64,000 bases of DNA from assembly GCF_020520425.1 (NCBI RefSeq), contig NC_079489.1, positions 22,344,001-22,408,000 of the forward strand, given 5' to 3'. This DNA comes from Spinacia oleracea. Its lineage: Eukaryota > Streptophyta > Magnoliopsida > Caryophyllales > Amaranthaceae. Below the pieces are notes generated by a model, which worked only from the letters and a program-made list of their open reading frames with translations, was not told the DNA's origin and ran no database searches. This document shows, one piece after another, positions 13,016 to 62,644 of this stretch (the first letter of the stretch is position 1; the number at the start of each line of letters is the position of its first letter). The translations under genes were made by a program, and so were the position numbers.

Positions 13016-17299
<4,284 letters not shown>

Positions 17300-17475
17300 T
17301 TAGTTCTTACTGAGAAGAAATGAAAATATGAAAGGGTGGAAGGTGTAGTTGTCTTTTAACTTTCGGCGTTTATGTGTGCGAGTTTTTTTGGGGTTATGTA
17401 ATTTTGGAGGAGATGATAAAGTTTCTCATTTTTTGTGACGGCTAACATTTCACAAGGGATTGTCGAAAGAATACA

Positions 17476-40477: not shown

Positions 40478-41551
40478 ATTATGTGTTTGAGTTGGTTCAC
40501 CGACATTAACATATGCAACATCCTCTTCACTATTTTGAAAGTGTTGTGATATGTAAAATGTTGAGAGGTTGGTTAAGTGGAAAATAAATTTGGATTTTGA
40601 TATACTAGGAATTTGGTTTGATTTTTGGACGTCGGAAATGTTTGGTTGAGGATTATCTTTGCACCACCTATTAAAATATTATAACTGAGAAGAAGATACC
40701 ATATTTGGATTGAACTGAGAATTATTAGGATTATTGGGATCCGTGCTTTGAACACAGTAAGATTCTGGAGTAATATTTGAGAAATAAAATGGATTGGATA
40801 TATATACAAGCATACTACATTTTTTCTTAATTGTTGGTGCAAGAGCTGACACCATGCATGCATAGCAGTATCTTGCAAGCACAATTAGCACATTGACAGC
40901 AAGATGCTTTGCATGGCAAACATATGTGTCGTGGGAAAGATGCATGAATTACTTCACTATGTGGCAATCTACGAAAACTTTTCTGCTCTTCTTCGCCTCT
41001 TTCCTAATTTTCATACACAATTTTCTAATTATTTTTTTAATATAAAAAATCAGAATATGCAAGATGACAACACATTGTATGATGGAATCAAAATTAAACG
41101 CAACGAATTGTGAATTGTCCCACATGGTCATAAACCCACAATTTTATTAACTTGACCTGCGGTAACATATCCGACCAGAATCAAGTTAATAAAATTTTGA
41201 CCCTTATACACTGTCAACATTTTAGTCATTTTACTCCATCAATTATCACTTGTCCCAAGTCAAGTATCACGGTTGACTTGACGGTTGCGACTTGTGTGTG
41301 CTCGAGGCGTGCTACATCGCTGGTAACCAGCGATCTTTTGGCTCCATACCCAGGGCTAAAGCGTCATTTTACAGGTAATGTTGACAAAGTCAACAAAGTA
41401 ACTTCAAAAGTTACTGCTCTTCATTCCTCATCCCTGAGATCTCAATCTCTCTCTTGCTTATGCTTCTCCGACAAAGCCGTATCCTCTCCGACGAAGCCGT
41501 TTCCTCTCCGACAACCACCATCAAGCCGTTTCCTCTCTTCTCTGTTCAAAA

Positions 41552-44500
41552 ATGAAGTTTTCTTCTCCTTCTCTGTTCAAAAACGAAAGTCGCCTTCAAT
41601 ATATGGCTGGAGGTTAGTAATTCAAATCTAATTTGTTGAGTAATTCAATTTTAATGGGTTGTTGTTGAAGTTCTGTAATTGATTATTGAAATTGTCTTCT
41701 TGACGAAATGAAAATTATCGTCAATTGATGGTTGTTTCTAGGGTTTTAGTAAATTTGGGGGTTTATTCTAGGGTTTTAGTAAAATTATGGTTTTTTTCCT
41801 AGTGTAATCATTAAAATTATGGGTTTATTCTAGGGTTTGTGTTCCTCAATTCATGCAAAAACATCATGGTAATTTTCAATTTAATCAAAATTTACTCTAT
41901 TTAATGTCCAAAATTTGTTGATCGGTTTTGTTTATGGTGCTATGCTATTCTGGAAAGTGAAGTGTCAGTACCAGTTTTGTTGATTTAAAATCTAGGTAAT
42001 TTATGGTATTTAACAGATTCAAAACATCAAACTTTACAAGCTTGATGTAAATTGCGCAAATACAAAGCTAACAAAAGCTACAATAAGAATAGAGAAACAT
42101 GAAAGGTTATACCGTATTAGGTAGACAAATTAATTACCACCCTTGAGAAAGAAATGCAGGCTTTCAACTTAAAGTATCTTTGTATGCAATGTGATTATAT
42201 TAAGCAGAAAGAAAAATTAATAATAATTTGAGTCTCTGATACATGTGAAGCTGGGAAAAATTAATAATAATTTCTCACCCACCTTCTACATTCTGGTTTG
42301 ATCTATGTTACCCATTGGAAAAGCTGGGAGGCCTTCCTTCTCCTGCAATGAGAAGCATAGAGGGTCAACTTGCATATTTTTATTTATAAACGATGAAACT
42401 TAGCAGAACTGCAACCATCATCCTTCCACAATAAGCATGCCTCGGTAGTGGACTAAAAAACATAAAATACTAATACAGAAAATAATCACGCCTTGGAAAG
42501 AACAGTTATATAAAAATGTAATTCAACAAGGACACATGGAAATTTGTTTAGAGAATTGAATTTCAACATCAAAAATCTCAATTTTACAAAACATTCTAAA
42601 TAAAGGTATAGAAAATTTTATGGAGGGGTAATGTAATGTGAATCAATATAATGCGTCGAAAATAAATATAATGCGTCGAAAATTCTGATTACTAACGTTG
42701 AGCCTTATTAATGGGCGTTATGTATTGTATTTCAATTGCTTATTCAATTGCTTCAGTATTTTGTCATTTTTCTTAAAAATCTGTAAGTTGCTTGTCAGAG
42801 ATGTTATTGTATTTTTCTTATTCGATTTTAGTTTCAAATAGTGCCACCCCTAGTAACGTGGTTAAATGATGACTTTTGCATTTTTGTGAGTTGGTTCAGA
42901 TTTAATATACTGTGTTTTGCTTAGTTTATGATTTGTGTAAGTTGTTTGCCGGACAATCAGTTAAATAGTTGAAATGATAACTATAAACACTGCCTAACAC
43001 ATCATTCCACCTGAAGATATCACCTACACTAATTTACTTGAAATATTAGATATCACCTACACTAATTTACTTGAAAATATTTCATTTGAATTTGTTCTGG
43101 ACTGTAGTACTGTACCTAATTAGCTATTGGTTAAAATTGCCCAGATATATGAAGTATAACATGAAATGAGTATGTTTGTGCTTGCATGAGCAGCTTAAGA
43201 TTGTGTACTCTCCCAGGGGAAGAAGCTTTAATCTTCGTGATTTTAACCTTCAGTATAAGGAGTCAACAAAATCATTTTGCATATTGTGAATTGTGAGTCG
43301 TGAATTGTGTGCACCATTTCTTGTGTGTTGGGTGTGTGTCGGGTTGATGAATCAGGAGGGTATCCTATTTCGTTTATTTGGAAGAGTTTATAAACATTAC
43401 AGATACTTTCAAGTTGTCTATTTTCAGATACTTCAATGTATTTCTTTGGTGTTTGAGTGTATCTAAAGAAATAAAACAAGTATAGGAAGGTCTGAAAGTC
43501 AAAGCACCTACTGATAGTCTCAAATGTGATAAATAGGTAGCGTTTCTGTAACTGTATAATGTGTTGTGTAATTGGTGTTTGAGGTTTTCAACTAGGAAGC
43601 TCATGCTGTGATTAATTGGTGTCAGCTAAATACTATCTTGTGGATAAGAGAGCAAGGAAGTTTAAGGAAGTGAATGTTTCACGGCCTTACACCCTTATCT
43701 TTACCTCATAGAGTCATAGCCTTTTTGTGGTCATGTTTTCTTGAGACTACTGTGATGCCTGATAATCTCTTGAGAAATCTATAACTCTGACTATGCTACA
43801 GAAACTTTGCATAGAGTACTGCGATAACTGCACAAATCGTCTCCCTTAGGAATTTTTTTCTCTTTCATGGGCATAACGTGGAAGTTGCAAAATATTAAAC
43901 CACATATGAATGAGGACTTAGCTAAGCATTTGAAAGCTAGTTGATTCAAATTCAGAACTTGCATTTGAGGCTCACCCTGTATCCTTTTCCCTTGTGACCC
44001 TAAGGTGAATGTCTTCTAGGTTGAAAGAAACCTAAAATTCTCTTTCTAAGGGTATGTTCCCTTTGTTGTTGATGGTTCTTTTGTTGCTGTAACAAAGTAG
44101 ATATCATAGTTGGTAAGAAACTTATGCTATTCTCAGTACATCTAATTTTGTACTCTGTATTATTATTAGGTTTATTTGAACGAGGAAGGGGTCGTGGACG
44201 AGGGAGGGTAGAACCACAATTTAGTGCAAGAAAGGTATGTTCCTCCCCTCTCCATCTTCTTTATATGTCAAATGGGTGTTATTTGTGAGTTAATTTTTAT
44301 GTGTTTTATAATAGTTAAACTTCGATAACACCGACTTTGACGAGGAGCCTAGTGGAAGTGATTCTGAATATACCGGTCAAAGTGATGAACATGTAACTTA
44401 ATTCCAAGCATTACCGATTTTTTTACTTGTATAGATCTTATGAAGTTGTTTCATTTATTCTTATTTGGATGCAACCATCCCCCGAGAAAAAAGAGGTTCC

Positions 44501-47500
44501 TAAAAGAGCAAAGATGGTTGCTAATGTGTGTAGAGTAAGTGGTCATTTCCTTGTTGAATATCTAGTGAGTTTACAAGAATTGAAATAATTTAATTTGTGT
44601 TATTTAACTCAGGATAATAGTAGCACTAAGGGGGGTATGATGAAGGCGGCTAACACAGTTATTCAAAAACGCTCTCAGGAGATGAATAAAAAGGTAGGAC
44701 CACTTTGACGACTTCCATTAAATGAATGTCTTAGTGTGAGTGATGTGAAACTGATATTCTTATTTTTGTGTATGCAACCTCCTAATCAGAACTGTGCTGT
44801 TGAGGCCCTTGGAAGAATATTAGGAGCGTTCGATGATAGGAAAAGGAACTTAGTTAATGAGATGGGATTTGCTGGCCTATTTAGTATGATTGATAAAAGG
44901 CTACCGGCAAACCTAACCTATTGGCTATGTACAAGGGTAGATGTGGCTCTCAAGTCTTTTATGTCTCCAGACGGGGTCCAGTTTCCTCTAAACCCCATTC
45001 AAGTCCATTGGGTTCTCGGGATTCCAATGGGACCGAGACCGGTCCCAACTACAACTGTCGATGAGAATCTTGAAAAAGACATTATGAATAAGTTCCGGAC
45101 TGTACACAAGAAAGGTGGTGGCATAACCAAAAAGACTTTGATGGAATATGTGGAGGGTCCTTGTGAAGATGATAACGAGTTCAAGAGACTCTTTTTGCTG
45201 CTTGCTTTAGACTCGGTACTTACCCCCACCACATGTCATCGACTGAGTATGAAATTTTTCCACTGTGTTGCTGTTGCACATGAAGCCTCCGAGTATGACT
45301 GGTGTAGTCTTGTCCTTGACCAATTGTTGCATGCTGTTGGAAGCTTCAGTACACGGTTCTACGCAGATGGTTATGCTAGAGGATGTGGTGGATGCTTAAT
45401 ATTTCTAGCAGTAAGTTTTTAATCCTTATGAATCATGTCTTATCATTGCATTTAATATCTTTATACCACTTTATCATATATTTTTATATGATTGCATTAA
45501 AAATTGGGTTCTTTGTAAAGTAAAGTTGGAAAGTAACGTTTATGCGTTGACATATTTTCTACCTAGATCGACTTAAGAGACCGCCTGTTGATTGAGGTGT
45601 ATTTCCGGGAATGAGGGTATGGACAATAGAAGAGATGAATAAGGCACAGAATCTGGATCGTCTTCCATCCCGGGATTATGGGTGTGTAGGGGTAAGTAAT
45701 ATTCATTGAAATGTCTAGTTATTCGTAACGTACTTATAATATTTATCTTGTATTAAAATATTTATAATGTATGTGCCTAGTGTGTTGATGTCGCTTACGG
45801 CCATACCCATCCAATGATGAAGGATATTATGCCCGGGAAGAGGATAACCTCGACTGAGGTTGATAAGGTGATTTTATGGAGTTTATTGAATTTATTATTA
45901 ATAACTGCTAACTTTATATTTACAATAAGTAGATTCTCAAACTTTACCCAAGTGTGATACCAAGTGAAGTGTGAACTCAAACTTTACTAAGTGTGATACT
46001 ATATAAACATATATGACAGTATATTATTGTTTTTGACAGTATATACACCTATGTGACTGTATTTAACTAATATGACAAAATTTGTGCTTAGTGACAGTAT
46101 ACATCTACATTGTGACAGTATACATCTACATTGTGACATTATACATCTACTATTTGACAGAATATGGCAAAGTTGAAAATTTGTTGGTGTTGTGATGTAA
46201 TTATGTAGCTGAAAATTCCCATGAGACTGAGGTTGTGGTCATTGTCTTGTATAATTAAAACATGCCAAGAACTCTGTTGTACTTGTTTGTTTTAAAACAT
46301 GCTAAAACTTAGTCATTATGTTACATTAAGGAACTTTACACGTATAGTAGACTTCTTGTTTTAAAGACCTTATCTTGAATCATTAATCTTATATTTGATA
46401 CATATCTATTTTGACAGTATATAATTTATTTTTGACAGTATATAATTCATATATGACAGTATATAAATTCATTTTTGATAGTATATATGACAGTATATAA
46501 GTTCATTTTTGACAGTATATAATTCATGTATGACAGTATATAAATTCATTTTTGATAGTATATATGACAGTATATAAATTCATTTTTGACAGTATATAAT
46601 TCATATATGACAGTATATAATTCATATATGACAGTATATAAATTCATTTTTGATAGTATATATGACAGTATATAAATTCATTTTTGACAGTATATAATTC
46701 ATATATGACAGTAAATGTTTGGATTAAATTTAAATTTGAAGATGCACCTTGATGTTTTGTAGTTAATGAATGCCGTGAAAGCTGCATTGGACACCAATGA
46801 CGTGGATGAGTATGACGTTTCTGTTTTGATAAATGTCACGGGCAAAAATAAACGAAGACGTGGTGGGTCATCAAAATCCATTCCACAAAAGGTCAAAGGA
46901 AAGTCCAAAGCACAAGGTACAGTCCTGTTATTTGGTATTTTTGTTCATATTTTTTTGCACAGTACAATAAACTAACTGATGTACAACAACCACTACAGGA
47001 AAATGATACACATGAAGACGGAATAATTGTGACGGTGTAACAAAGGGTCGCAAAGGTGTTGGGGGCGCGAATACTACTTTGCAAATTGCGGCGGTTTAGA
47101 GGGTCGCAATATATTACGACACACTAAAGCGTCGCTATTTACCAGAAAAGACACGTGAAACCCACGTATTAATATTTTGCCAAAAGATATCCCGCCTGCT
47201 CCCACACCCTGCTCCACGATTTTCTCCCTCAAACAACCGACTCAACCCTCACTCTCAACAATCAACTTCTCTCTCTCTTCCTCTCTCCTCAAGATTGATT
47301 TCACTCATCGGTCTTTCAAACCCTAATTCCTGAATTCATTCCGTTTCTTGTTCTTCGCTTTAATTTTGTGTTGATTTTCGTTCATTTTCTTAATTTTTTT
47401 GATTCAATTGATCTGAAAGTCTCGGACTTTTTGTTTTTTAGGTTTTAATTAGGCACAATGTCGCGTGTATTGCCGGCCAGCCACAGACCACCGCCGCCAA

Positions 47501-50500
47501 CTAGCCATAGACTCACCACAACAACGGCCTGCACGGTTTCACCTAGCTACCTCAGAATTTCTGAAACATCACCACAAAACTCCACGGAGACGCCGACTAG
47601 TACGAAGAGAAGTTCCGGAGACTCGTCGCCTTACGCGTCGACGCTCACGGGGAAGAAGTTCAGCCGTTCAACCTTAGGGGTATATACATTTCTTCCAAAT
47701 TGAATTTTAATTTCTTATCCATGATTGATTATCTACGTGCTTTAAATCTTTAATTGCTGGTCAATTGATGAATTTCGTGTTTATAAATCATGATTTGGTG
47801 ATACTGTATGTCTATATTAGCTTGACATTTCTTGTCTCGCACCAAATTATGATTAAGCTTAATTTGATAGGGAGTAATTATGCAAGTGGTTTATGTTGAA
47901 GATAATGCTAAGTCATACTTTGTGTGGATGAGTTTGAGATTGAGCTGTACAGATACTCGATGAAGTGCTAAATCTGACATAAAAGCATTGGCATATTGAG
48001 TTGTCTGAAATATTTACCTGTACAAATGAAAATAAGCTCATGCCACAGGCAACCCAATCAAACAGGATATGACCCATGTATAATGAAGTCTTCTTGCAAG
48101 ACTATCTAACACTATTTTTACCAATTGCCTTTGGCAATAACCAATTGCAGAAATCAAACAGCTTCAGATTCCACTTACAAAAATAGGTATTTGCTTGTTT
48201 ATAGGAACTACTCTAGCACGTTGCAAATTCTATTAGGCCTTCTCTTATTTAGACTAGTATAGCTGGAAGATGTAGCTCGAGAGTGTGCAATAACAGTAGC
48301 TCCAATAAATAAAAATACAAGCAGAAGATCAAAGATAAGATCTTGAAAAGCAAGTAAAAAACCATAAGATTGAGATCCAAAGGAAGGAGTGTTTTATTGG
48401 CTAGGTATAAGGCTAATTTTCTTTTTGTGTACTGTAAAAATCATAGTATTTGTGGCTTTTTATAAGGTTAGTTTTGTTCTTTTGTGGAACACTTCTTTAC
48501 ATCCTTAAATTCCTAGGTCTTTTAGTACTTTCCAGTCCTACATCAGATTTTCTAGAGCTTATCTTGATTCCTGATTGAGTTAGGTTTCATGTTACTTCAT
48601 TTTTCTACAACTTTTTTTGTTCTAAAATAATAATTTCTCAGTTTTCAACATTTAAATCGGCTAACCCTAGTTCTGAACGCAGTCTTTTGACGCCTTCAAT
48701 TTTTCGGTGATTCAATCTATTTTCTTTATCAATTTCTCTCATCTTCAATTTCAATTTTCTGTATTTTCTTGTTGCAGTTTAAGTTGTTTTTTCATGTCAT
48801 GCTGTCTTAGTCATTTTTAGTACTTCAATTAACATGGAGGTTGTGTCCCTTGCTTCTTTTAGGATTGGGTTATTGGATTGATATCCTTCTTTCGTGATTA
48901 AGGAAACTGAGTTGGGGAGGCAGGCTCAGTAATTTAAGCACAAAGGATTTCCAATCGACTACAGTCAAATTTGTTCAGGTAAAACCAATTTATAATAACT
49001 TAAGTTGATACTAGCTTAAATGAATATTATTAGTAGGTGATGGATTATTCATTGGATCAACAATCTGATTATATTGTTATCTAAAGTTGTGATTTATGAT
49101 GCTTTAATGTCGTATAATTGAATGAGATTCACTTTTCTAAATGATTCACTTTTCTAAATGCAGAGGGTTGAGTGTGGTTTATTTTTGGAAAGGGTTTGGT
49201 CTTAAGCTGTAACTTCAACTCTTTGTGGTATTTTTTACTTTTTTGTCCGGTTTTTTCTCTCCATGATCCTGTTTATCTTGCTTGTACATCAGGTGTGGTT
49301 AATTATTTAATAGCATATGCCGTCTTGATATGTTTGAGACTTTTTAGGAATTTATTCTTCCTGTTTTAGTTACCATTCATATCGGCCCTCTTTTGGCTTT
49401 AGCTGTTCTCGCTCGGTACTCTCATGTAGATTCTTTGTGCCACTAAGGTTTAGTGGTGCTGATGATTAATTTGTGAGAACTCTGACCACTTTCCCAATGT
49501 TATTGTTTTCTTTCTTTATACTTCTAACCTTTTCAAATCTATCAAACTTCTTTCTAAGTTGACCAGTTTATGATCTTAATACGAATTATTAATGCCTCTA
49601 GTTTGCTTGGTGTGTATCCTTAAGTTTTCCTGTATGGGATCAATCTATCAAGTATTACGTGCAGTTTTCTCTCAGTTAAACGCCATTGTGATCTGAACTC
49701 TTGTGACATGATGGTTGATGCGGGACCCAGGGAATCTTGGCACATTTCTTAGATCGGCCCTGGCTTTCGAATGGGTAAGGAAGTTTTGATCCTTTAGTGC
49801 TTCTCGCTTTACATCATATTTGTGAAAAAGTTAATCGTTGTAAAGAATAAGTGTCTACTGCACAGTGCACACTGTCATTATTAACATCTTTTGCACGCTT
49901 TTAGTAGTTGCTAGTCATGAATAATTTTCATCGTTGGTCTGCCAAAAGAATGAAATTGAAGAATCAACCTGGTTCTATCATTTTAAGATTTCCAATTTAC
50001 CTGAACATATATGCAGTATACAGATTCTTATTCTTTGATTAGATTGTAGAGATGTACTTTTAAATGACTACGTACAACATTATTATGTTTAACAAAATGG
50101 TGTTTTCCTGCTTCCTGGATGCTGTGATCCTTTCAATGAGAAGGCACTCAGGGCAAGCAGAGGTGCTCTGTTTCAGCTTCCTCTTGTTTCTGGAAATTGG
50201 GCACATTTTGAAGCTTTTTGCAATAAAGTTAAAGTGAAGATGTTTGCTGGTCATCCTGATAGTAGCAACGGACTCAAACCTGTTCATAAGTTGTCCCCGA
50301 AACTTGCACAATCTCTTGATGATACACCATTATGTTTGTTTTTAGGTAGCGAGGGTAGCGGCCTTACAGAGAAAGCGAGACAGTTCTGTCTGGTAAGCAT
50401 ACCGATGGCTACTAACTTTGAGTCTCTTAATGTTGCAGTGGCAGGTGGACTATTTATGTTTATGCTGCTATCATAATAAGGTTTTATGCTGATATTAGCT

Positions 50501-53500
50501 GAAACACGAGTTGGTGTTAGGTGGCCTGGGTTGTTAACAAACTATGGTTTCTATTAGTTAATTTATGACGCTCCTGTAACTCTAAAAAGAAGCCAGATAA
50601 GAACCTGGTGTCTCAATGTACAACAGGTTTAGAACCTGCAAGCTTACTATACACATGTTTCACAGAGTAATGCACCATACTACACAACTCAGCCTTACTA
50701 TATATCTTCTTTAATGATTCTTTAGTATCCCAAATCTTCTTTCGTGCGGAACTGTACTAAAAAAAACATTGTGCTAATACATTCAAAGTTACCGTTGATC
50801 CAATGCTTTGGTGGTTGAAAGTGAAAAGCAGTTCTATGAACACGATCAATCTCAACCTGGTTGGCTATAAGACACTGCAAACATGGATTCCCTTGGTAAT
50901 TAAACACAAAAAAACAGTTTCTCAAAACCACCACCTCCCCTGAAGCCTTTCCGAAACCCATCCATCCAACATAAGAGTAACCATAAACTAATTACTTTTT
51001 TCTAGTAAGCAGGACAACAAGCAAACATCACGGCCAACATGTCACAGAATTTCATTGCTCAATATCAGCAAGTACCAATCATAACCAAGCATTACCAGTT
51101 ATCAGTCTTGTTATTCTTGTAAACTAAGGTTCTGAAACCTGAAAACTTGGATCAAGTTCCGAATTCTAGAAAACTAAATGAACATTTATTTCGTAAATAA
51201 AGTTCTGGAACTAAAACCACTTGTTCGTACATATAAGAATTTAAGTCAAACAAAATACAACTTGGACAAATAGTACCGTTTAGAGTCATACTTGCTTGCA
51301 AAGCCTTAAATCCTCTCTATATTATAGGAAACTATTTTGTTTTGACATATAGTATGCGTAAGAGTAATTAACTGATAATATTAGCTTGGAAATTTGAAAA
51401 AGAAGGCAGCAACAAAGCTCCTAGTGTTATTACAAGTCATCGAGGCATCAATGTTATATTTATATTAGCATTATAGCATATCAAATTGGTTTCACAACTT
51501 CCAAAAATTTCATAAAAAATAAGGAAATGCACAAAAGTACCAATATATGACTAAAAACAAGAAGCCAATTGAAGAATTCCACCATTTATAAATTCATCTA
51601 TGCAAGAAAGAATATCATCAAGGAGGAAATAAGTGATACATGATAAATGCACGGTTCTGTAATAAAAATTAGACAAGCATAAAAATTACAAATTTAAGCA
51701 TATCGAAGCAGACAACTATGACAAAGGATATTGTAGTCAGTGCCTTAGTCCATTTTCCCTCATATGTTTTCTTATCTCCTAGTCAATTTCATGATATGAC
51801 ACTAAAAACCTCCTACCTCAAAGTAATCTCTCGTAGTGGACATTCAGAATCTGCTGCTGTGCTGAGTCCTAGTGTTGATAGTTTTGCAGGTTTGCAGTCA
51901 GTCAGGCATGTTGTTCTGCTCAGGCTGGCTTGCTGTTGTGCAGTTTATTTTTCAGCTTGTTGTTGTGCAGTTCTTTTATACAAGCCTTGTGCTGTTCAGT
52001 CTGGTTCTGCTGTGTAGCTTGTTTGGCTGGTGTCTTGTTTTTTTTTTTTGGTTTTCAAATGGGCAAGCCTGCTAATTAAAGAAAGTCACAGTTTAAGCAG
52101 CAAGTTAATGAACATCAGTTTGGCTGGTGTCTTTGTAGAATATTTTAGTGTTTTTGCTTGGGTGCGGGCTGTGCTCCCTTAGCTTTTGTTTCCCTTGTTG
52201 TTTTGTGTTGGTTGTTGTTTGGGTTTCTACCTTTGGTAATTAAGTTAACTAATTTACCATATATATATATATATTCATTGTTCATGTCTATATTTCTAAT
52301 AGTCATGCATTTTTCCCTTGATTTTTCCCTTGATTAATAGTTGGTATTACTTTGAGAAGACCACTAGTAGTTAGGATCAAGCTGGTTAGGATTACTGTTG
52401 ATTTTCCCTTGATTTCATGGAATGTTTATCATACTTCATATATATTTGACATTAATTTTTCTTTGCAGATTATTGATGATTCAAGTGGTAATAGTAAAAT
52501 GTAGATCAAGAGATGAACAAGTTATCTTGAAGCTAAGCTAGCATAAGGATAGGTTTACTTGGTAATTAGTTTGTTCGTAGCCAGGAAGTTGTTTTTATTT
52601 TGTTTTGGACTATCTTGTAGAAAAAATGATAATACTAGTTAGAAAGTTATTTTCGTTTTAAAATATCGCTTTTATTTCAGTTTGACTAGACTCTGCGAAT
52701 TAATTTAATGTATAGATGATTTTTATCACTTTTTCTAAATTAACTACGTTATCGCTAAGTATATATGAATCATATATAGCATGACGTTAGATATATGTTG
52801 CTTTAAGATAGTGTACGTACGTAGTAAGTTAATACTTGTATTTGATTATGATTAATGATCTATGGTTGATATATATTTTTATAGATAATTCATGATTTTA
52901 GATTAATTGATATATGAAAACAAATATGATGCAAATTGTGACGCTCCAAAGTGTCTAAATTATTATGTATATATGAAAAATAATATGATGCAAATTGTGA
53001 CGCTCCAAAGGGTCTAAATTATTTTGGAGGGAATGAGGGGAACTCACGAAAGTAAACATATAGTGACTCTAATAAGAGTCTATATATTTCGGGTGTCTAA
53101 AGCGTCTCTATATGGTTTATAGTGGCATAGAAATGTGTCTATAAGCGTGCAAATAGTGACGCTTTATACAGTCTAAATATTGCGACTCCCTATAGAGTCC
53201 CTATATCCCAAATAGCGACGGGGAAATACATCGATATTTTGCAAATTGTGACGCTCTAAAGCGTCGGTAAATAACGGCAATAAAAATAGCGACCCTCTCC
53301 CAAAGCGTCGCTATGTGAAATAGAGACACTCTATACCGTCGCAATTTGTCCCAAAAAGCGTCACAATGTGCCGCGTTTTTTTGTAGTGAACCACTAGCAG
53401 AACCTGATATACCATCTGAGAGAATAAGTGTTATTGAGAAGTCCATCTCGATGAACCAGTACACCAGGAAGAATAGAAGGACAAAGAATTCTGAAGATGC

Positions 53501-55495
53501 ACTGCACCTTGATGAGCCACTGCACCTTGAAGAATCAGCTCAGATTGGGACAAATAAATCTGGAGTGGCACTAAATGAGACCGAGCCGAACCAATCTGAT
53601 GACGCACTGCACCTTGATCCAGGTAAACCACACTATGCAGCGATATTCTGAAATTTGGTTCTTCAAACTTGTAGATATTATTGAATGCAGTACATATTGA
53701 ATTAAGACAATGACAGCATGCATATACTATATATATATTAAACCACCTTAAATCTGAAACTAATATCTTTATCTAGGTAATAGCGTTCCAACCCACAATG
53801 ACGAGAGTTTTGTAGCAAGTCCTGAAGTAAGTGAAAAGGTGGGCACATTTGATTCGGAAAATGAAATAGAGTACTCCTCCCGTCCCATCACCCTAGTTTT
53901 GAAGAAAGAGCGGTTTCGTATGAGAAAAAAGTTTTGTGAAATGAAGGAAAGTCGCAAGAAGAGGACGATGGGACCCTCCCCGACGATCACTGAGTCGTAC
54001 ATTCAGATTTGGCGGCCGAAAAAAATCCGTGCCTACGTTGATATGATAGCCCAGTTCGTTATGGACAACAGTAGTGGGTCATCTAGAAATCTGAATGGAA
54101 ATTAAGTTACTTTATTTCTTATGGTTTGTTGTTTCATGGGTTATGTTTTATGCTATACTAATTATTCATTGGATGTGCTTGAAGGGTCGGACCTAAAGTG
54201 TTGGAGTTCGATGGAGATTTTGTGAACGCAAACCTGAGTATAGGTGTTGTAAGAAGTAATAGTGAAGTTACTGACCAGGTATGCATTGTGTACTAGCTTG
54301 CAAGACAGATCTATTATTCATTATGTTCTTTTAACTAATTTAATATGTTTCCACAATACATTTCAACATAGTATGTGAGGGTTGCAAGACAGATCTATGA
54401 GGAAACATGGAAATTACAATTTCCAAACCGGAGTAGGCGGTTCATGTTGGATCCTGCATTTGGGGTGAGGCATATGTCAAATTGCTTTGTCTTCCCCCCC
54501 CCCCCTCCCCCCATCCCTCCCCTATAATTTCAACATTCACTGATATTCTTACTTGTGTGGGACAGACATTAGTTGTGGGTGCCAAAGGTGATTCTGATAA
54601 AATTAATAGCCTTGCGCAACGGTACACTAAATACGTGAGTGGAACACCTCTCACTAGAATAAATGTGGTTAGTATTAGTGCTTGTAAATTATTATTTGTT
54701 ATAAACACTATAATATGGTGTTTTATTTTAATAGAAAACTGTCTGATGACTAAGTTTTGTTTTTAAAGGTGTTTGTGCCCGTTCTAATCAAATGGCACTG
54801 GTGGTGTGTTGCATTCTCAATGAATAGACAAGAGATCCTAGTAATGGACTCACTCAGCACCACCGATGCGGCGAATGTTCACTCATTAGAGGTCACCCAA
54901 TTGGTATGCAAAAACTTACCTAAGGATCTTTCTAGTACAATGTCACAACACCACCGATCCAGTAATAGATTTCTTTCTAGTAAAATGTCCTCATCGTATG
55001 CTAAGTATTTTCAACAATATACAGGCCTATGCGATAGACACTGCATTTTCATTGATAGATCCGGAGTGGGTTACTGATACAATCACAAGTGAATGGCGTA
55101 GAACATCATTGGCCATGGAGAAACAAGAGGACGGGTTAGTATTTCATCCGAACATGACTAACCGTGTTCATATGGTGTTATATGTTTTTACAGTGTTCTT
55201 ATATTGTAAGTATTTATTATCCAGGCACAGCTGTGGTGTGTGGATGCTACTTTGTATTAAACGGAATGCGGATAGGATAAGAACTCGCCTGGATCCGGTA
55301 ATTTTTTTTTTTCTTATATGACATGACAAATCAATCACTATGTTTTCCCGGTTAAATATCGTGTGACTTGGATTATTATAGGTACCCAGATTTCCAGAAG
55401 AAAGGAAATGGCTATTATGTGAAGACATTATGTCTGATTTCAACGACGCCAAGAAAGACGTGCTTAAACGGATTCATGACGCCTGGATAGACTGA
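41552..55495 (+). CDS. Ulp1/SENP-like cysteine protease (C48) gene, 18 exons, one in-frame stop
   Basis: Would cleave SUMO or a SUMO-like protein. Exons: 41552-41612, 44170-44234, 44315-44392, ~44469-44534, 44613-44693, 44790-45410, ~45560-45691, 45781-45867, 46763-46916, 53401-53622, 53777-54077, 54185-54278, 54372-54464, 54566-54667, 54769-54903, 55025-55134, 55225-55297, 55382-55495; phases agree from exon 8 on. Order: RG-rich start (FERGRGRGRGRVE), acidic linker, a conserved N-terminal domain of TE-associated Ulp1 proteins (GFAGLFSMIDKRLP, VHWVLGIPMGP), a basic linker, then the peptidase. Catalytic residues: His in WHWWCVAFS, Asp in LVMDSLS, Gln and Cys in KQEDGHSCGVW. TGA at 45593-45595 replaces an expected Trp (KRPPVD*GVFPGMRVW). 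Acceptors of exons 4 and 7 are unclear. Intron 9 holds a CACTA element; intron 8 a minisatellite. Either recently dead or mis-spliced. Confidence 0.8.
46010..46720. repeat. Minisatellite of TGACAGTATATA-type units in a protease intron
   Basis: Irregular units of about 24-25 bp built on TTTTTGACAGTATATAATTCA and ATATGACAGTATATAAATTCA, densest at 46405-46715, with scattered relatives from 46010. Higher-order repeats of several units are visible. The same core recurs outside the array at about 55610, 55985-56030, 56825 and 61255-61305. Confidence 0.85.
47458..47703 (+). pseudogene. Possible captured first exon of an unidentified gene
   Basis: A CT-rich 5'-UTR-like stretch (TCTCTCTCTTCCTCTCTCC near 47270) precedes ATG at 47458. 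The frame is Pro/Ser/Thr-rich (VLPASHRPPPPTSH...), of low complexity, and runs into a probable intron near 47680. Base composition is far richer in G+C than the surroundings. I recognise no family; it may not be coding. Confidence 0.3.
49715..50476 (+). pseudogene. Captured fragment of a SpoU/TrmH-family RNA 2'-O-methyltransferase gene
   Basis: SpoU enzymes methylate ribose in rRNA or tRNA using a knotted SAM fold. Piece 1 (to 49774) reads MRDPGNLGTFLRSALAFEW, the motif 1 region; piece 2 (about 50099-50476) reads FLLPGCCDPFNEKALRASRG, then LFLGSEGSGLTEKA (motif 2) and VSIPMATNFESLNVAVAGG (motif 3), ending in a stop at the natural C-terminus. The three signature motifs are intact, but most of the N-terminal half is missing and the second acceptor is not clear. 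It looks like a fragment of a nuclear gene for an organellar or cytosolic methyltransferase. Confidence 0.8.
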
Positions 55496-56191
55496 CAAAC
55501 CTTTTTGTAAACCCTCGTTCCTGACACATTTTGCAGAGTATCGACACATTTATTTTGAAAGAACGGAACGATTCATGACAACACTAATCCAAATTGTGAC
55601 AATAATTATCTATCATGTGACAGTATAGGCCAACACTTGCTAATTCATATGACATATTAATAGGATGTTAGAGTAAAGTTTGGGCTGTTAGGCTAATTAA
55701 TTATTGGCTCCACTTTGTAAATTATTGGCAATTCGTTTCATTTTGTAGATAAAGGTCATTTTGTAAGGTATTAAACTAAAGGCCCTCCATTCGTATAAGC
55801 ATGGGGAAAATATAGGCCATTTTGTAAATGTGTTGGTTACTAGACGCATTGTTTTTGAAAAACAACCATCTAATTCGTTGACATTTTATATCTATGACTG
55901 TAAATACTTTACGTAAATAAGTAGGTGACTAAAATTTGATTATTCATATTTTTGATAATTATTTGCAAGACTATAAGGTAACAAATGACAGAATAGATCC
56001 CAGATATGACAGTATGTACGTCATTGGTGACATATAAAAAATAAATAGAGTTATTCACTTTATTAAATCTCAATCTTAATTTAATCCTACCACCCACCCT
56101 CCTTAATAAATACCACCCCGCTTCTGCATTTATTTTTCATCTCCTCTCTATCTCCCTCTTCATTCCTCCTTAAATCCGAATCTTCAATATT
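55496..56191. other. Spacer between the Ulp1 and GRF genes
   Basis: AT-rich. Contains TGACAGTATAGG, TGACAGAATAG and TGACAGTATG motifs related to the intron minisatellite. A CT-rich stretch (TCTCCTCTCTATCTCCCTC, about 56139-56157) just before the next ATG resembles a plant 5' UTR. No gene seen. Confidence 0.5.
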
Positions 56192-56746
56192 ATGTCAAAT
56201 GAGTCGCGGTCTGGTTCAGTTTCACGAAAGGGTTGTAGGGGAATGGTGAAATGTTATCATAACTTGGAATCTCCTCTCCAAACTTACAAGCGAGGTGCAA
56301 ATATTGGCAAGAATTTTTATGCATGTCCTTTATGGCCCGTAAGTTTATAGTTAAGTTCTTGAAATTTAAAAATTATACTTTTATCATATCGTTAATACTA
56401 ATTATTGTTCTAATATTTTTTCAATTAGAATTCTCCATGCAATTTTTTTAGGTGGGAAGGTGACAATAGTGTGCCGTTAAAGGAAATAGAAGATTTGCGT
56501 TACCAACTTTTTGAGAAGGATCATATTGTAGCTGAAATGGAAGCTCAAAAGAAGATTGTGGAGGCAACATATCAAAAGTTGAAGATGAGAAAGGAGGATC
56601 TTGAAAGTGATGTGCAACAGATGAGGGATGAACTTTGTCAAATGCGAGTTGAATTGCTCAATACGAAAAGAAAAGAAAAAACATTTACAATTGGTTTGCT
56701 TGTTTCATGGCTTATCTTTGCCATTGTAATAACGTTGTTAAAATGA
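56192..56746 (+). CDS. GRF-type zinc-finger protein with coiled coil and C-terminal membrane segment, 154 aa, 2 exons
   Basis: Exons 56192-56338 and 56429-56746 with GT/AG sites and matching phase. Residues about 17-60 form a GRF-like finger: KCYHNLESPLQTYK, then GKNFYACPLW and SPCNFFRWEGD, where GRF domains bind single-stranded nucleic acid in other proteins. The first ligand pair is Cys-x-His rather than the usual Cys-x-Cys. Residues about 65-128 are a heptad-rich coiled coil, and the last 22 residues (TFTIGLLVSWLIFAIVITLL) are a membrane helix, suggesting a tail-anchored protein. Small GRF proteins of this build are frequent in plant genomes, often near transposons. The reading frame is intact. 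Confidence 0.75.
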
Positions 56747-57022
56747 TGTAATTTATATTACGTTCCTTTTAACGTTACTTAGTCACCTACGACCCCATGT
56801 GAGTAGATTTCAACTTAGTCAACTGTCACAGTATTTTATACTAATATGACAAATGCTGAATAATAAATGGCAAAAACACACACAAACATAGATTAAGCTT
56901 ACTTGTCACGATAATATTACAACATAGACAAATGCCAATTCCAGATAGAAAAAATGGCATTAATAGATAATAATATAACATTAATAGATAATATGGCATT
57001 CATAGATAATATTATAACATAA

Positions 57023-57884
57023 TTAGTACTCCTCATCGTCGCTTGATTCCCCCTCCTCACGATCCGAAGAAGATGATCCCCTAATACCATCATACATCCT
57101 TTCACCAAAAGTAACAGCTGCATTGCAATGGTTCTCCCTATAGTTAACCGGGTAGCTAGTCGTCAAACACCAATCGGTTAGATGTGACCAAGTCTCGGTG
57201 CTTAGTTGAGTCAAATCCATTTACTTCAAGCATCCTAATCTTGAAGTCCTTGAACGCGTGCTGGTTGGTCTTGATGTCCTCGCAAATTTCAGTTGAACCA
57301 AATTTTATCCAGTTGATAGTTTTATATACCTCACCGTTGGTTAGGCCCCCGCAAAAGTCCCTCCTTAGAATTACCATTCCCCAACAGTCACCATGGGTTA
57401 GTATAAGTTCATCTACCATCCCAACCCACTTGGGGATTGTGGATGTCAGATGGAAAAAATTAACTAATGGTCGATACCTCCTTTCATCATTAACACACAG
57501 GCGGAGATAACCACGGAGTTGAATTAGGTTGAAGGAGAAACAAATATTGTACATATCTAATAGATAGTACATAAGACAATAAGCTTCACGGCGAAACCGT
57601 AGTGGATTGCTAAGCTTGAAAGGTTCAATAAAGGGATACTCAGGGTGAAACACTATACCGTTCACTACATCATAACCACTCCTAGCAACGGTAGCCAGCT
57701 GGTGTGCAAACATCTTTGTTCTGTTTCGCGCCTTCAGCGTGTGGTACCCCAACTTTGCTCTCAGTTCCGATGGGCCATCCATGATGGCATTCATCAGGAC
57801 CGCACAATTTTTCTCAGGGCTGGTGTTTTTCTTGCTAGGAGGACAGCAAAAAATGTAGGTGCTACTCCCAACCGGATTTTCCAT
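57023..57884 (-). CDS. Unidentified protein, about 280 aa, with an apparent frameshift near its C-terminus
   Basis: Convergent with the GRF gene. From ATG at 57884, directly after a TTGTAG acceptor-like sequence, the frame runs 242 codons to a stop at 57156. A second minus-strand frame overlaps at 57220 and continues to 57023 with WSHLTDWCLTTSYPVNYREN and an acidic tail SSSSDREEGESSDDEEY. The second tail looks more protein-like, so a single-base shift near 57220 is likely. Conserved-looking blocks include GYHTLKARNRTKMFAHQLA, GIVFHPEYPFIEPFKLSNP, RFRREAYCLMYYLLDMY and ELILTHGDCWGMVILRRDF. I recognise no family and assign no function. Its place in the Ulp1/SUMO-like cluster is the only context. 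Confidence 0.5.
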
Positions 57885-58406
57885 CTACAAATCAGTTAAA
57901 CAAAAAGTAAACATGCCTTTTATCAATGCTTGATGGTGTTACAACAATAGATCTTAGTAATAATAAGGTAAATAAGAGGAGCTTTACATACCTTTACGAC
58001 AATAATTAGCAATACTTGATGGTGTTCTTTCAAACCAAAGGACATCTTCCATTTTATAATTTGGATAGTAGTAGTAGATTAATGCTCGTAGAGGAATCCT
58101 AGAGTCAGCAGGATATGTGATAGTATTTGCAGGAGATGTGACAACACACTATCTGACAATGACCTACAACTCTAGTGCTCCAGAATATGACAGCTAAAAA
58201 ACAGTGGAATCTAATCAGAAGGAAATGAAAATTGGACCATGACCATCAATTTTCAGCTACCATATTATAAAACCGTACGATATCATCAGGTTTACTAGTC
58301 CAACTACAAAACTAGTTGAACTAGTCCAATTACAAAACAAAACGTGATAACATAAAGAACAAAGTTTAAATATAAAATAAATAACTCGTAAAATGAGTTG
58401 TTGTGC
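57885..58406. other. Spacer, no gene seen
   Basis: May contain an upstream exon or 5' UTR of the unidentified minus-strand gene (ACAAATCAGT... precedes its ATG). A short repeat CTAGTTGAACTAGTCCAATTAC lies near 58310. Confidence 0.4.
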
Positions 58407-58931
58407 TTAAGCGACATGAATAATCCCCATCCATTTATTAGTGGAAACCTTAAAAGACTTGGCTAAAACATTGTTAGACAATCCTATTACCGTAATCCCT
58501 CCCGACAAACCTTGCGGTTCTGCAACCTTTGCAAATGTGGATGGATAATCCTTCATTATCCACTTACACATAGTTTTTGTTACCCTTGTTTCTCCGATAA
58601 TCAGCAGGTCGGGTTGAACTGCGTTGATAAGTTGTTTCATTCGTGTAGGAAAACATTCCAATGTCATCCCTTTACAATTCCAAATCAAAACATCAGTTGT
58701 CTGTTTCCTGAATTCACATTTGGCTCGCTGTTCTGATCTCACATCCACATCAACCTCTAAGCGCCTCCCATCCCGAAGATCAGCGGTGATAGACTTGGAC
58801 CTTGCCTTAATATGAATGTTGTGCAACTGCCTCAAATCAAGCTTCATTATTTTCAGAAAATCCGATAAACTGGACATATCAAAATGGTACGAATCTTTGG
58901 ATAGTATCACTGTCTCGTAAGTGAGCGGCAA
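58407..58931 (-). pseudogene. LINE-like endonuclease fragment, or fusion to an unknown segment
   Basis: The minus-strand frame is open from a stop at 58943 to 58407. Its second half has the signature of the start of a plant LINE ORF2 apurinic-type endonuclease: DVLIWNCKGMTLECFPTRMK, LINAVQPDLLIIGETRV, and LSGGITVIG. It stops soon after, lacking the rest of the endonuclease and all of the reverse transcriptase. The first half (YETVILSKDSYHF to RRLEVDVDVRSEQ) is not LINE-like to me and has no ATG. It may be unrelated sequence or an upstream exon. Confidence 0.5.
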
Positions 58932-60208
58932 TTGTGGATATCACATTGACATAATTGTATCAATTCTCGTTAATATGTCAATAGCCTTTGACTCTTTAAT
59001 ATACCAAGTGTAGAAAATCTTCAACGGGGTTGGCAATAAAGCTAGATCGGATAAATCCGGCAAATGGAATGGTTTAATAATCCCCGTGGTAGAAATCTGC
59101 ACTACATTGGTGAATTGTGGGTCAATCTCAGATGGATTTAGAATGAAATCTACGCACTGTTTTTTTGATAAGTACGTGACTTTGAGGAGGTTTGTAGAAG
59201 AGCTTGGTTGACTAACAACAACTATTGATTTTGAATCAAGGTTCGGGAAAAACTTGCCGTATTACTATTTTTGACTCGCTTAATTGTAATGTATCAGTTG
59301 GTTTAAGCATAACTTCTACATGCTCAACATTTTTTTCTTTGTGGTTCTCCATTGACGAGCTCTACATTATAATACCATCCATTTCTCTTTAGGAATTCCA
59401 AAAAACTTGTGCTGAATAAATATAACATGTGATGTGGTTTAGGTGGAAAATTTATTAGCAAAGCTGCCAAATTGTGGGAAATTAATTAGCAAATCTGCCA
59501 AATGAAACACGTTACATTTGTGGGGCCAAATTATTATTCTCCAAACATATTGTTCTCTGTGATACTTTATGAGATATTCTCTGTCATACATATTCTCTAT
59601 GATATAATTATTCTCTGTCATAATTAATTGTTATTAGATATTCTCTTGTCCTTTATAATGAATCAATGTACGTACGAAATATGTTAAAGCCTATCTATAT
59701 ATTGTCATATATATTCTGTCATATATATTCTCTGTCATATAAGTTATGAGATATTCTTTAAAAGGAATCGAATCAAAATTTCTTAGATATTCTTCTTTCT
59801 GAGATATTCTTTCCCAGATACAGCTTTATCTGAAATTTTCCTTTCCAACACAAAGGAAAACTTCACTGACTTTACAATTAGAAAACAACGTCCTTAGTTG
59901 CACTGTTTCAGTTCGGTTACAAACGGATCGTGTCATTGAATTCGTTAACTATTTCGTTAACAAAGTATAAACCGTTTGATGCGTATCATGTTATTACCAA
60001 ACCCGGAACATGTCATGATCTGTACATACATATGATCTGTAGTTTTACAATATATATGATCTGTATTTTTACAATACATATGATCTGAACTTTTACAATA
60101 TATATGTCATGAACGTTAACAACTTGGACTTTGTTTTCTATTTTATACAATGAATATAGATCATACGGTACGTATATCCTGTCATTTTACAATATATATG
60201 TACTCATA
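58932..60208. other. Spacer upstream of the SUMO-like gene
   Basis: No gene recognised. Around 59560-59770 many ATTCTCTGTCATA / GATATTCTCTG units occur, and around 60020-60190 ACAATATATATGATCTGTA-type units, both loose repeats with the GTCAT/ATGAC core seen elsewhere in this cluster. Confidence 0.5.
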
Positions 60209-60209
60209 C

Positions 60210-60217
60210 TATAAATA
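60210..60217 (+). promoter_or_regulatory. TATA box of the SUMO-like gene
   Basis: TATAAATA lies 70 bp before the start codon at 60280, at a normal plant distance for a transcription start near 60240. Confidence 0.6.
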
Positions 60218-60279
60218 GAACTGTATTGTATTACAAGTAGGTGGACAACACATTCCTTGTTTTTGGCATCAATTATTAA

Positions 60280-61039
60280 ATGTCTTCAAACTCTTCCTCC
60301 AACCATTCTGCAAATGACTCAGACTCATCAGCTGAGAGTTGTGTGATTCTTGGGAAATCACTAACCACGACCATTGGCGTTCTCGTCAAGGGTGGGCACG
60401 TGGACGACAAAGGAGCAAGGTACATAATGAACTTTGACGGGCCATTCAATAGTATTTACAAGGACCACGCTAGAAAAGTGGAAATAAGCACGGATGACTT
60501 GAGGTTATACCATAGGGGACAACTAATTACTCCGACCGATACCCCGATGAGGAGTGGTTTCCATGGCAATGAAATCTTATTAGCACTGCATAAGGTAACA
60601 AAACGAACAAGAATTAATTATATACTCTCCATATTGTTTAACTCAAAATTAATGCTTTGTTTCATTTACTTTATAACACTCCTGATGTATATTTAAAGAT
60701 TCACTCAAATTGTTTATGGTTTGGCAGGATGGTAGTGGACTACCGGTGGACGTAATTAGGTCATATAGTCCAGAGCATGTAATGTTCACCGTGTCAGATT
60801 GTCGCACCAATCCGATAACTGAGCAATATAGATTTAAAAAGCAGGACAATACGGCAAAAATATTCAAAAAGGTCGCGGCCACCTTTCAAGTTGCAGAGAA
60901 TAGGGTACGCCTTATTTTGGACAACAAGAATATTGACGACCGGCAAACGATCGAGGAGTCACCTATTTACGACGGGGCAGCCATTCAATTAGTTCGGGAA
61001 GGAATTTCCTACGATAGATCCAACCATTATCAGGATTAA
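60280..61039 (+). CDS. SUMO/ubiquitin-like protein, probably two Rad60-type SUMO-like domains, 208 aa, 2 exons
   Basis: Exons 60280-60594 (105 codons) and 60728-61039 (103 codons plus stop), joined in phase 0 at AAG|GTAACA and GGCAG|GAT. A Ser-rich acidic N-terminus (residues 1-25) is followed by a first possible ubiquitin-like unit (VEISTDDLRLYHRGQLITP, ending EILLALHK), and exon 2 holds a clearer SUMO-like fold: YRFKKQDNTAKIFKKVAATF, VRLILDNKNIDDRQTIEESP, YDGAAIQLVREG, matching the strand-helix-strand pattern and the SUMO 'D.d.I.v' end. There is no C-terminal Gly-Gly; it ends GISYDRSNHYQD, so it is unlikely to be conjugated as encoded and more resembles Rad60/NIP45/ESC2 SUMO-like domains. 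It lies 4.8 kb from the Ulp1 gene on the same strand. Frame intact. Family by fold pattern only. Confidence 0.65.
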
Positions 61040-61386
61040 ATGGAGCTTGGAGAAGGTAAATTGGTTCTGTCATCCATTATATCATTTTTTATACAAATAT
61101 ATCATGTTTCTTTTAGCACATTATATATTTTGGTATCCATTATATACAAAAATATTCCACGGGTCATGATAACCATAAACTAAATTGTGACAATAGGTCA
61201 TTTGCTAAATTATATGAGTGGATTAAAGTAAAAAACAAATATTATCTGTTCATATTGACAGACAATATATTAATGATGACAGCATATACCGACAAAAGAC
61301 AGTAAACCTTTGCAAATAGACTTGTAATATATAGGCGGAATTTAATTTCCAATTCATTTCCAATTTCCTCTTCAATCCCACACAGC
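61040..61386. other. Spacer after the SUMO-like gene
   Basis: AT-rich with TGACAGACAATAT, TGACAGCATATA and AGACAGTAAACC motifs, variants of the cluster's recurrent core. A short pyrimidine-rich stretch precedes the next ATG at 61387. Confidence 0.5.
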
Positions 61387-61493
61387 ATGAGCCGGTTCCG
61401 CCCACCTACCAGATTTTCTTATTCAGAATCCCTTAGCTCATATTTTTACGAAGACCCTCCACCACCACGACATCCAGAATTAGATTTTAACAA
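61387..61493 (+). pseudogene. Start of an unidentified gene, cut by a CACTA insertion
   Basis: ATG at 61387 opens a frame MSRFRPPTRFSYSESLSSY followed by EDPPPPRHPELDF, which runs straight into the CACTA terminus at 61494. The upstream context (CT-rich leader after AT-rich spacer) resembles the other gene starts in this cluster. About 35 codons only; no family recognised. The rest should lie on the far side of the CACTA element. Confidence 0.4.
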
Positions 61494-61964
61494 CACTACA
61501 AAAAAACGCGGCACATTGTGACGCTTTTTGGGACAAATTGCGACGGTATAGAGTGTCGCTATTTCACATAGCGACGCTTTGGGAGAGGGTCACTATTTTC
61601 ATTGCCGCTATTTACCGACGCTTTAGAGCGTCACAATTTGCAAAATATCGATGTATGTTGCCGCCGCTATTTGGAATATGGGGACTCTATAGATAGTCGC
61701 AATATTTAGACTGTAAAAAGCGTCACTATTTGCACGCTTATAGACACATTTCTCCGCCACTATAAACCATATAGAGACGCTTTAGACACCCAAAATATAT
61801 AGACTCTTATTAGAGTCCCTATATGTTTACTTTCGTGCGAGTTCCCTCTTTCCCTCCAAAATAATTTAGACCCTTTGGAACGTCACAATTTGCATCATAT
61901 TATTTTTCATATATACATGATAATTTAGACACTTTGGAGCGTCACAATTTGCATCATATTTTTG

Positions 61965-62003
<39 letters not shown>

Positions 62004-62644
62004 TATCATGAAAAATAATATGAAAAATTAATCTAAAATCATGAACTATCTATAAAAATATATATCAACCATAGATAATCATAATCAAATACAAGTATTA
62101 ACTTACTACGTACATTATCTTAAAGCAATATATATAAAAGTCATGCTATGATTCATATATACTTAGCGATAACGTAGTAAATTTAGAAAAAGTGATAAAA
62201 AATCATTTATACATTAAATTAATTCGCAGAGTTTAGTCAAACTGAAATAAAAGCGATATTTTAAAACAAAAATAACTTTCTAACTAGCATTATCATTTTT
62301 TCTACAAGATAATCCAAAACTAAATAAAAACAACTTTCTGGCTACGAACAAACTAATTACCAAGTAAACCTATCTTTATGCTAGCTTAGCTTCAAGATAA
62401 CTTGTTCATCTCTTGATCTACATTTTACTATTACCACTTGAATCATCAATAATCTGCAAAGAAAATTCAATGTCAAATATATATGAAGTATGATGAACAT
62501 TCCATAAAATCAAGGGAAAATTAACAGTAATCCTAACTAGCTTGATCCTAACTACTAGTGGTCTTCTCAAAATAATACCAACTATTAATCAAGGGAAAAA
62601 TGCATGACTATTAGAAATATAGACATGAACAATGAATATATATA

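Follow-up and report, generated by a model that had tools for sequence, protein, structure and literature searches.

The Locus and Its Genes

The DNA considered here is a window of 64,000 nucleotides of spinach (Spinacia oleracea, contig NC_079489.1; C3:22344001-22408000 of a genome assembly with 894,210,420 bases in 242 contigs), in which a first-pass annotation, made from the letters alone, had placed a cluster pairing a Ulp1-type SUMO protease with a SUMO-like protein at 41552..61493, possibly as one large transposon. The cluster has been found to be a single Mutator-like transposon (MULE) at C3:22385304-22425253, which is 39,950 bp long including two CACTA transposons inserted into it. The element begins at window position 41304 and ends at ext 81253 (C3:22425253; ext coordinates carry the window numbering on into the right flank), ~17 kb past the end of the window. 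It encodes a transposase, a Ulp1-type protease, two tandem SUMO-like proteins (SUMO-A and SUMO-B), a GRF-finger protein and three further proteins (ORF285, EN1 and EN2); the transposase and SUMO-B lie beyond the window, and a 9-mer, TGACAGTAT, recurs in the noncoding DNA. Further genomic copies are designated B to F, with B on C5 and C on C1. The features in the window are the following:

41294..41303, no strand: left target site duplication of 10 bp, GTGTGTGCTC; its right copy lies at C3:22425254-22425263 (ext 81254-81263), outside the window
41304..64000, no strand: window part of the MULE, delimited by copy comparison, ends and motif distribution
41304..41353, plus strand: left terminal inverted repeat; its counterpart has C3:22425253 as its last position and, in the window copy, is without an internal stretch of the palindrome
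41552..55495, plus strand: Ulp1/C48 protease gene in 18 exons, modelled by eye, with a PMD-like N-terminal region
46014..46693, plus strand: intron array of 16 copies of TGACAGTAT, with spacings of mostly 20-22 or 34 bp
46991..53388, no strand: CACTA insertion 1, in an intron, with the duplication AAC on both sides
55618..56015, plus strand: two TGACAGTAT sites (55618 and 56007) between the Ulp1 and GRF genes, from a motif scan
56192..56746, plus strand: gene for a protein of 154 amino acids with a GRF zinc finger, a coiled coil and a C-terminal membrane helix
57021..57884, minus strand: ORF285, open over 285 amino acids in copy C
58407..59352, minus strand: EN1, ~320 amino acids, ending in a weak, partial endonuclease/exonuclease/phosphatase-like segment, with a stop and a frameshift here and open in copy C
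60280..61039, plus strand: SUMO-A, 208 amino acids, exons 60280-60594 and 60728-61039
61388..61493, plus strand: start of EN2, a protein of 276 amino acids, which is split by CACTA insertion 2, resumes at ~C3:22417313 and is open in copy C
61494..64000 and on to ~C3:22417312 (ext 73312), no strand: CACTA insertion 2

All five genes listed by the first-pass annotation are present, namely a C48 protease with all catalytic residues, a GRF/coiled-coil/membrane protein, a protein of ~280 residues that belongs to no recognised family, a SUMO-like protein that has no Gly-Gly, and a truncated further gene, which is EN2 as interrupted at 61494; the minus-strand gene at 58407-59352 and the CACTA element at 46991-53388 had been missed. 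In copy C, the genes Ulp1, GRF, SUMO-A, EN2 and SUMO-B stand on the plus strand, and ORF285, EN1 and the transposase on the minus strand.

The splice sites of the Ulp1 model are standard except for one acceptor. The C-terminal part of the protein matches Pfam Peptidase_C48 (7e-8), and His (KWHWW), Asp (VMDSL), and Gln and Cys (QEDGHSCG) of the catalytic centre have been located by eye, by comparison with known motifs. Against the PDB, the protease part has given weak matches only, the best real relative being Ulp2 5lnb (E 1.3), and a sequence search with the PMD-like part has returned 0 matches. For the transposase, with the segments of copy C joined by X, the domains MULE (3.5e-29), FAR1 (6.8e-7) and SWIM (3.5e-5) have all been found above the Pfam cut-off, and on these domains it is identified as that of a FAR1-type MULE; judged by this make-up, it is Jittery-like.

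The GRF finger is supported by Zn_ribbon_GRF (6.7e-10), and the membrane helix has been seen by eye. No credible protein family has been found for ORF285 in Pfam searches. The ends of EN1 and EN2 weakly suggest the start of an endonuclease/exonuclease/phosphatase domain (E 0.0019 and 0.031, respectively), and the endonuclease-like segment of EN1 has no match in the PDB; as no more than the beginning of such a domain is indicated, the idea that EN1 and EN2 are complete endonucleases has been rejected. The two proteins have different N-termini, both end in the partial endonuclease-like segment, and one stands beside each SUMO-like gene.

SUMO-A (208 amino acids) and SUMO-B (213 amino acids) share 108 identical residues (~51%), and each consists of two SUMO-type domains in tandem. 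SUMO-A matches Pfam ubiquitin (1.2e-7) and Rad60-SLD (6e-6). The C-terminal Gly-Gly is absent from both proteins, SUMO-A ending in HYQD and SUMO-B in HYDD. With a profile of domain 1, the PDB search is led by poly-SUMO 4bkg (2.4e-7 over two domains), with SUMO 5xqm at 8e-4, followed by mostly SUMO1 and SMT3 among the best 60 of 150 matches. The profile of domain 2 has matched polyubiquitin chains (scores summed over repeats), trypanosome SUMO 2k8h (0.0036), and SUMO and NEDD8 (~0.04), and this pattern makes domain 2 less clearly SUMO rather than ubiquitin. As a single sequence, the SUMO-like protein has no PDB match better than E 0.19, and a single-sequence structure model of domain 2 has reached a mean predicted local distance difference test score (pLDDT) of 52.5, a low confidence that proves nothing on the fold.

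Ends, Insertions and Genomic Copies of the Element

A 10-bp target duplication flanks both long copies for which both ends have been read (2/2), the window copy and copy C, the latter being 20,073 bp long and flanked by GTTATGGGCT. Left and right ends are common to these two copies. The terminal inverted repeats (TIRs) are imperfect, with agreement at 44 of 50 positions when the two ends are compared in copy C, and part of the inner palindrome has been lost from the right end of the window copy. Both terminal inverted repeats and target duplications of ~9 bp, here mostly 10 bp, are traits of MULEs. The cluster is accordingly one transposon that has moved as a unit and left 10-bp duplications. 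The single origin proposed by the first-pass annotation, which had found neither terminal repeats nor a transposase, is borne out by the ends, the duplications, the transposase located beyond the window, and further copies with the same gene order where read; the copy alignment that it had suggested has delivered both common ends and target duplications.

The window copy is interrupted by the two CACTA transposons, both of which are absent from copies B and C. In inverted orientation, the right end of CACTA 1 matches the left end of CACTA 2 at ~95% identity. Within CACTA 1, an exon of a SpoU rRNA methylase is open (50093-50461; Pfam 2e-19); the insertion has probably captured it as a piece of a host gene.

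The blocks of the window copy that match copies B and C are collinear with them. They are mostly 95-98% identical, falling to 93.6% at the left end, and are separated by additional gaps that reach ~2 kb; copy B has been compared from the intron array rightwards, its left end lying outside the sequence examined. Copy D has been read in part, copy E at small search loci only, and copy F in full. With the SUMO-like protein as query, the genome search at the protein level (34/34 candidates scored) has yielded 24 exon matches. They represent five close copies of SUMO-A (exon matches of 71-95% identity), each followed downstream by a copy of SUMO-B (46-51% identical to the query); a further SUMO-B, at C2:62830206, stands alone, and a single distant relative has been found at C4:128682701. 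The distance from SUMO-A to SUMO-B amounts to 0.9-2.3 kb in three copies, 14.5 kb in the window copy and ~26 kb in copy E (C5:51.9M), and the extra distance in the window copy is mainly CACTA insertion 2. The pairing of Ulp1 with SUMO-like genes is real, and involves two SUMO-like genes rather than one; it has been observed in the window copy, B and C, the Ulp1 stretches of D and E lying outside the sequence examined. Where read, the order of the element genes around the further SUMO-like copies is unchanged, and the SUMO-like genes have turned out neither to be single-copy host genes that have no Ulp1 neighbours nor to belong to a cluster that occurs only once.

At the distant locus C4:128682701, a SUMO-like gene 34% identical to the query has an EN1-like segment beside it (by eye), and no TGACAGTAT occurs in its 3.2 kb. 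This locus suggests that the pair of an EN and a SUMO-like gene may be older than the MULE family, and the region perhaps belongs to another element family in which these two genes are likewise paired.

The DNA search with the right end has given at least 45 genome matches (40/89 candidates scored), and 20 loci have been cut out of these 45 for a survey of the family. Twelve of the 20 hold elements of the size of miniature inverted-repeat transposable elements (MITEs), 562-657 bp long and with both ends. Their flanking repeats are exact over at least 9 bp in 8/12, have one mismatch in 3/12, and have not been found in 1/12 (ends being shiftable by up to 3). A second MITE type of 516 bp (two examined, L068 and L069) is ~71% identical to the first type over its length; L069 has an exact 10-bp duplication and L068 one of 9/10. 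These two have related ends and two motif pairs ~186 bp apart. A 573-bp MITE of the same family (L044, C5:47497704) directly adjoins the right end of copy B, and another end match adjoins the right end at C4:55504801.

Among the best 123 of 1528 candidates that have been scored in the transposase search, 9 are close members (at least 88%) and 114 others lie at 51-61%. SUMO-like pairs are present in 5/9 of the close members. The element at C4:57332606 (copy F), which is without positions 5582-16470 of copy C, has been considered as a SUMO-free ancestor and rejected: since the break points fall within the Ulp1 and transposase genes, F is a deletion derivative.

State of the Genes and Selection

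In the window copy, Ulp1 is broken, ORF285 is frameshifted, EN1 has stops and EN2 is split, and SUMO-A, SUMO-B, GRF and the transposase segments are free of stops. The part of copy D that has been read shows stops in every gene compared. As none of the five copies read wholly or partly (0/5) is fully intact, present activity of the complete set is doubtful. The lesions differ among the window copy, B and C, from which we infer that the genes were intact when the ancestor of these copies moved.

Relative to the older copy D, ratios of nonsynonymous to synonymous change (dN/dS) of 0.52 for SUMO-A, 0.46 for SUMO-B, 0.25 for GRF, 0.18 for ORF285 and 0.35 for EN1 have been determined, and of 0.42, 0.72 and 1.23 for the transposase segments; the decay of copy D itself shifts these ratios closer to 1. 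The window copy has been left out of the EN2 comparison, the gene being split by the CACTA element. Constraint against copy D has been found for SUMO-A and SUMO-B pooled (one-sided Fisher p = 0.0067) and for GRF, ORF285 and EN1 pooled (p = 1.1e-10). These comparisons indicate that constraint probably acted on the element genes during the spread of the family, and provide modest evidence for constraint on the SUMO pair.

A 9-mer Shared by the Family

The first-pass annotation had noticed a core, TGACAGTATATA, that recurs in introns and spacers; it corresponds to the 9-mer TGACAGTAT. Over a stretch of 104 kb, 28/28 sites lie inside the element, with 0 in the CACTA insertions and 0 in the 64,050 bp outside. 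Copy C has 27 sites in 10,427 noncoding bases and 0 in 9,646 coding bases, this split following the gene models made in the present analysis. Among the 8-mers of copy C, the two contained in TGACAGTAT rank first irrespective of whether the intron array is included, and even with the array taken out 14 sites are observed and 0.32 expected. The main array sits inside an Ulp1 intron, and spacings below 60 bp in copy C and the window copy are mostly 20-22, 34 or 41-43 bp.

The short nonautonomous copies examined bear the motif as well. The 12 MITE-size copies carry 52 sites, 3-6 each, as compared with 1 site in 27.8 kb of the flanks of 11 of them (the twelfth, which sits at the end of copy B, has been omitted from this count). 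When one MITE of each type is aligned with copy C, matches occur at the ends and at motif-bearing noncoding places, with none in coding parts. Genome-wide, 437 pairs of TGACAGTAT 6-20 bases apart have been counted, as against 13 for the reversed pattern; among the pairs listed, those assignable to known loci belong to copy C and to the MITEs L051, L055, L057, L060, L068 and L069. The same paired words recur many times among the genome-wide pairs listed.

Remainder of the Window

Positions 1-41000 have been assigned by eye from open frames. They hold an LTR (long terminal repeat) retrotransposon gag (272-3253, minus strand), chitinase-like exons (10211-12283), a dihydrolipoamide dehydrogenase (13016-17355, minus strand), a hAT transposase-like frame (18679-20713), a Harbinger-like one (28028-29400, minus strand) and M1 aminopeptidase exons (32309-33059).

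Relation to Known Elements

ULP1 genes have been described in Jittery-like and other MULEs, namely in grapevine Jitvine families, melon and rice (PMC2528002). Like those portrayed in that source, the spinach element unites a FAR1-type, Jittery-like MULE with a ULP/C48 gene; its GRF-finger gene, EN1/EN2, the pair of SUMO-like genes and the noncoding 9-mer shared across the family are additions of which the available text makes no mention. TIRs of ~200 bp are given for maize Jittery/TED in the available text of PMC9569675, whereas those of the spinach element are much shorter. With the Kaonashi/KIU MULEs of Arabidopsis (PMC2528002, PMC6117577, PMC13317346), it shares the orientation of the C48 gene, since Ulp1 lies on the strand opposite to the transposase within the MULE; Kaonashi is described there as a non-TIR element with mudrA, in contrast to the TIRs, the FAR1/SWIM transposase and the SUMO-like genes found here.

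In Arabidopsis, VANC21 binds YAGTATTAY, and its motifs lie in noncoding tandem repeats that include introns of VANC21 and VANB21 (PMC5735166). Ulp1-bearing VANC genes (KIU) are said in a review to hypomethylate KIU-carrying elements by motif, the precise role of Ulp1 being described there as unknown (PMC13317346). What the spinach element has in common with VANDAL21 and VANDAL6, as presented in PMC5735166, is a short motif that is repeated in tandem outside the coding sequence, in part within the introns of element genes. The likeness is one of layout alone, as the motif here is TGACAGTAT and not YAGTATTAY or AGTTGTCC/AC, and DUF1985 has not been detected; YAGTATTAY has 0 occurrences in 41001-46996 and 0 in 53389-61492. 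Classical VANDAL membership has consequently been rejected, and the likeness of the motif layout retained. The genome holds at least 149 DUF1985 matches (150 of 893 candidates scored), many in open frames, and VANC-like genes may be common in it outside the element.

Head-to-tail SUMO-like concatemers, some of which have no diGly, are known from grasses as DSUL/GSUL2 (PMC6680281); they form a multigene locus that the available text describes with no link to a transposon or to Ulp1, whereas the spinach genes reside in a transposon. In planarians, the giant Gypsy-like retrotransposon Burro carries a SUMO-like domain, PF11976, within its polyprotein, in an animal host and, in the accessible part of the source, with no mention of a Ulp1 pairing (PMC6431247). 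The earlier statement that no described element encodes a SUMO-like protein hence holds for MULEs, for which the literature search, with most subscription papers outside it, has found none with such a gene, but it does not hold for Burro. ULP-bearing MULEs, including Jittery-like ones, and di-SUMO-like genes in grasses are already known from the texts cited; two SUMO-like genes, a protease and a self-tag combined in one DNA transposon have not been found in print by this search.

Proposed Anti-Silencing and Alternative Explanations

The content of the transposon and the shared tag suggest, without proving it, interference with the host silencing of jumping genes, and the motif layout resembles the self-marking by which VANC-type anti-silencing is addressed. 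Because of this VANC-like layout, with the main array inside the Ulp1 intron, sequence-addressed anti-silencing has been judged the most likely function, and we rate the chances as about even that this Jittery-like MULE with Ulp1, SUMO-like genes and TGACAGTAT uses the 9-mer in such a way. An element-encoded protein would bind TGACAGTAT, candidates being the PMD-like N-terminal part of Ulp1 or the FAR1 domain of the transposase. The bound tag would address anti-silencing, with a possible demethylation, to the members of the family, as VANC proteins do in VANDAL elements. At the tag, Ulp1 might then strip silencing factors of SUMO or of another ubiquitin-like protein, and the non-conjugatable di-SUMO-like proteins could serve as decoys that divert SUMO readers or could regulate Ulp1; protease and SUMO-like proteins together may in this manner disturb SUMO-dependent silencing. 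The weakening of host silencing would be confined to copies of the element instead of extending over the genome. The full arrangement, in which a Ulp1 is brought to the tag, two non-conjugatable di-SUMO mimics block or redirect SUMO-dependent silencing, and silencing is thereby lifted on family members only, is put forward as a tentative and on the whole unlikely special case.

Several observations weigh against tag-addressed anti-silencing. The protease gene is damaged in 3/3 copies in which the protease part has been read, so that its present activity is doubtful: in the window copy, the splice acceptor of exon 45557-45691 has been lost by a change from CAG to CAT, and a TGA stands in frame in place of the TGG of copy C; in copy C, the modelled start codon reads ACG and the gene contains one stop; copy B has a one-base gap in each of two exons. 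The damage in copy B lowers present activity, not a past role. SUMO-A and EN2 of copy B contain stops as well. Among the young copies, constraint on the SUMO genes is not significant (p = 0.27), and SUMO-A has 5 nonsynonymous and 0 synonymous changes between B and C. No SUMO-like match is found in 4/9 close family members, which indicates that these genes are not needed for every copy. As regards the likeness to VANC, the PMD match of the Ulp1 N-terminal region falls below its cut-off, the Pfam search has revealed no DUF1985 in the Ulp1 protein, and no element copies are among the 149 genomic DUF1985 matches obtained from the 150 of 893 candidates scored. The motif clusters common to the MITEs, finally, would equally be explained by transposase-binding sites.

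The last point leads to another reading, in which TGACAGTAT is a mere binding site that the transposase requires in cis, through its FAR1 domain, to mobilise the element, and the Ulp1 and SUMO-like genes serve other functions or play no part in silencing. Such sites would fit the FAR1 DNA-binding domain of the transposase and the MITEs, which retain the ends together with motif-bearing stretches, and subterminal repeats bound by transposases occur in other plant superfamilies. In the 20-kb copy, however, the sites are distributed among introns and the spacers between genes, from 3,706 bp inside the left end to ~550 bp short of the right end, and with the large array in an Ulp1 intron the layout looks more like VANC targets than like subterminal repeats; we regard this explanation as somewhat unlikely. 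Alternatively, Ulp1, the SUMO-like genes and the rest could be captured (transduplicated) passengers of no benefit to the element. Gene capture is frequent in MULEs according to the available texts of PMC2528002 and PMC6431247, the copies read carry stops or frame breaks, and both the missing SUMO-like matches, in one case (F) by deletion, and the lack of significant SUMO constraint among young copies agree with passengers. The genes, however, are whole and have introns instead of being fragments, nonsynonymous change is depressed against copy D, both SUMO-like paralogues have been retained at ~51% identity, and the distant C4:128682701 locus likewise pairs a SUMO-like gene with an EN1-like segment, so that passengers of this kind appear improbable. 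Introns and mostly standard splice sites are also what a host gene cluster hit by chance transposon insertions, and not itself a transposon, would display; the same gene order at several loci, the terminal repeats, the MITEs with the same ends, the internal transposase and the 10-bp duplications at 2/2 long copies leave practically no room for this idea, which has been rejected on account of the copies, ends and target duplications.

For tag-addressed anti-silencing, the element offers a protease, two candidate SUMO-like partners and a countable tag in one unit, whereby the question why plant MULEs repeatedly carry Ulp1 becomes testable in terms of the substrates and partners of the protease and of its guidance by the tag, with hundreds of genomic motif pairs as ready reporters. 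If the proposed mechanism were true, plant transposons would direct their counter-defence at SUMO.

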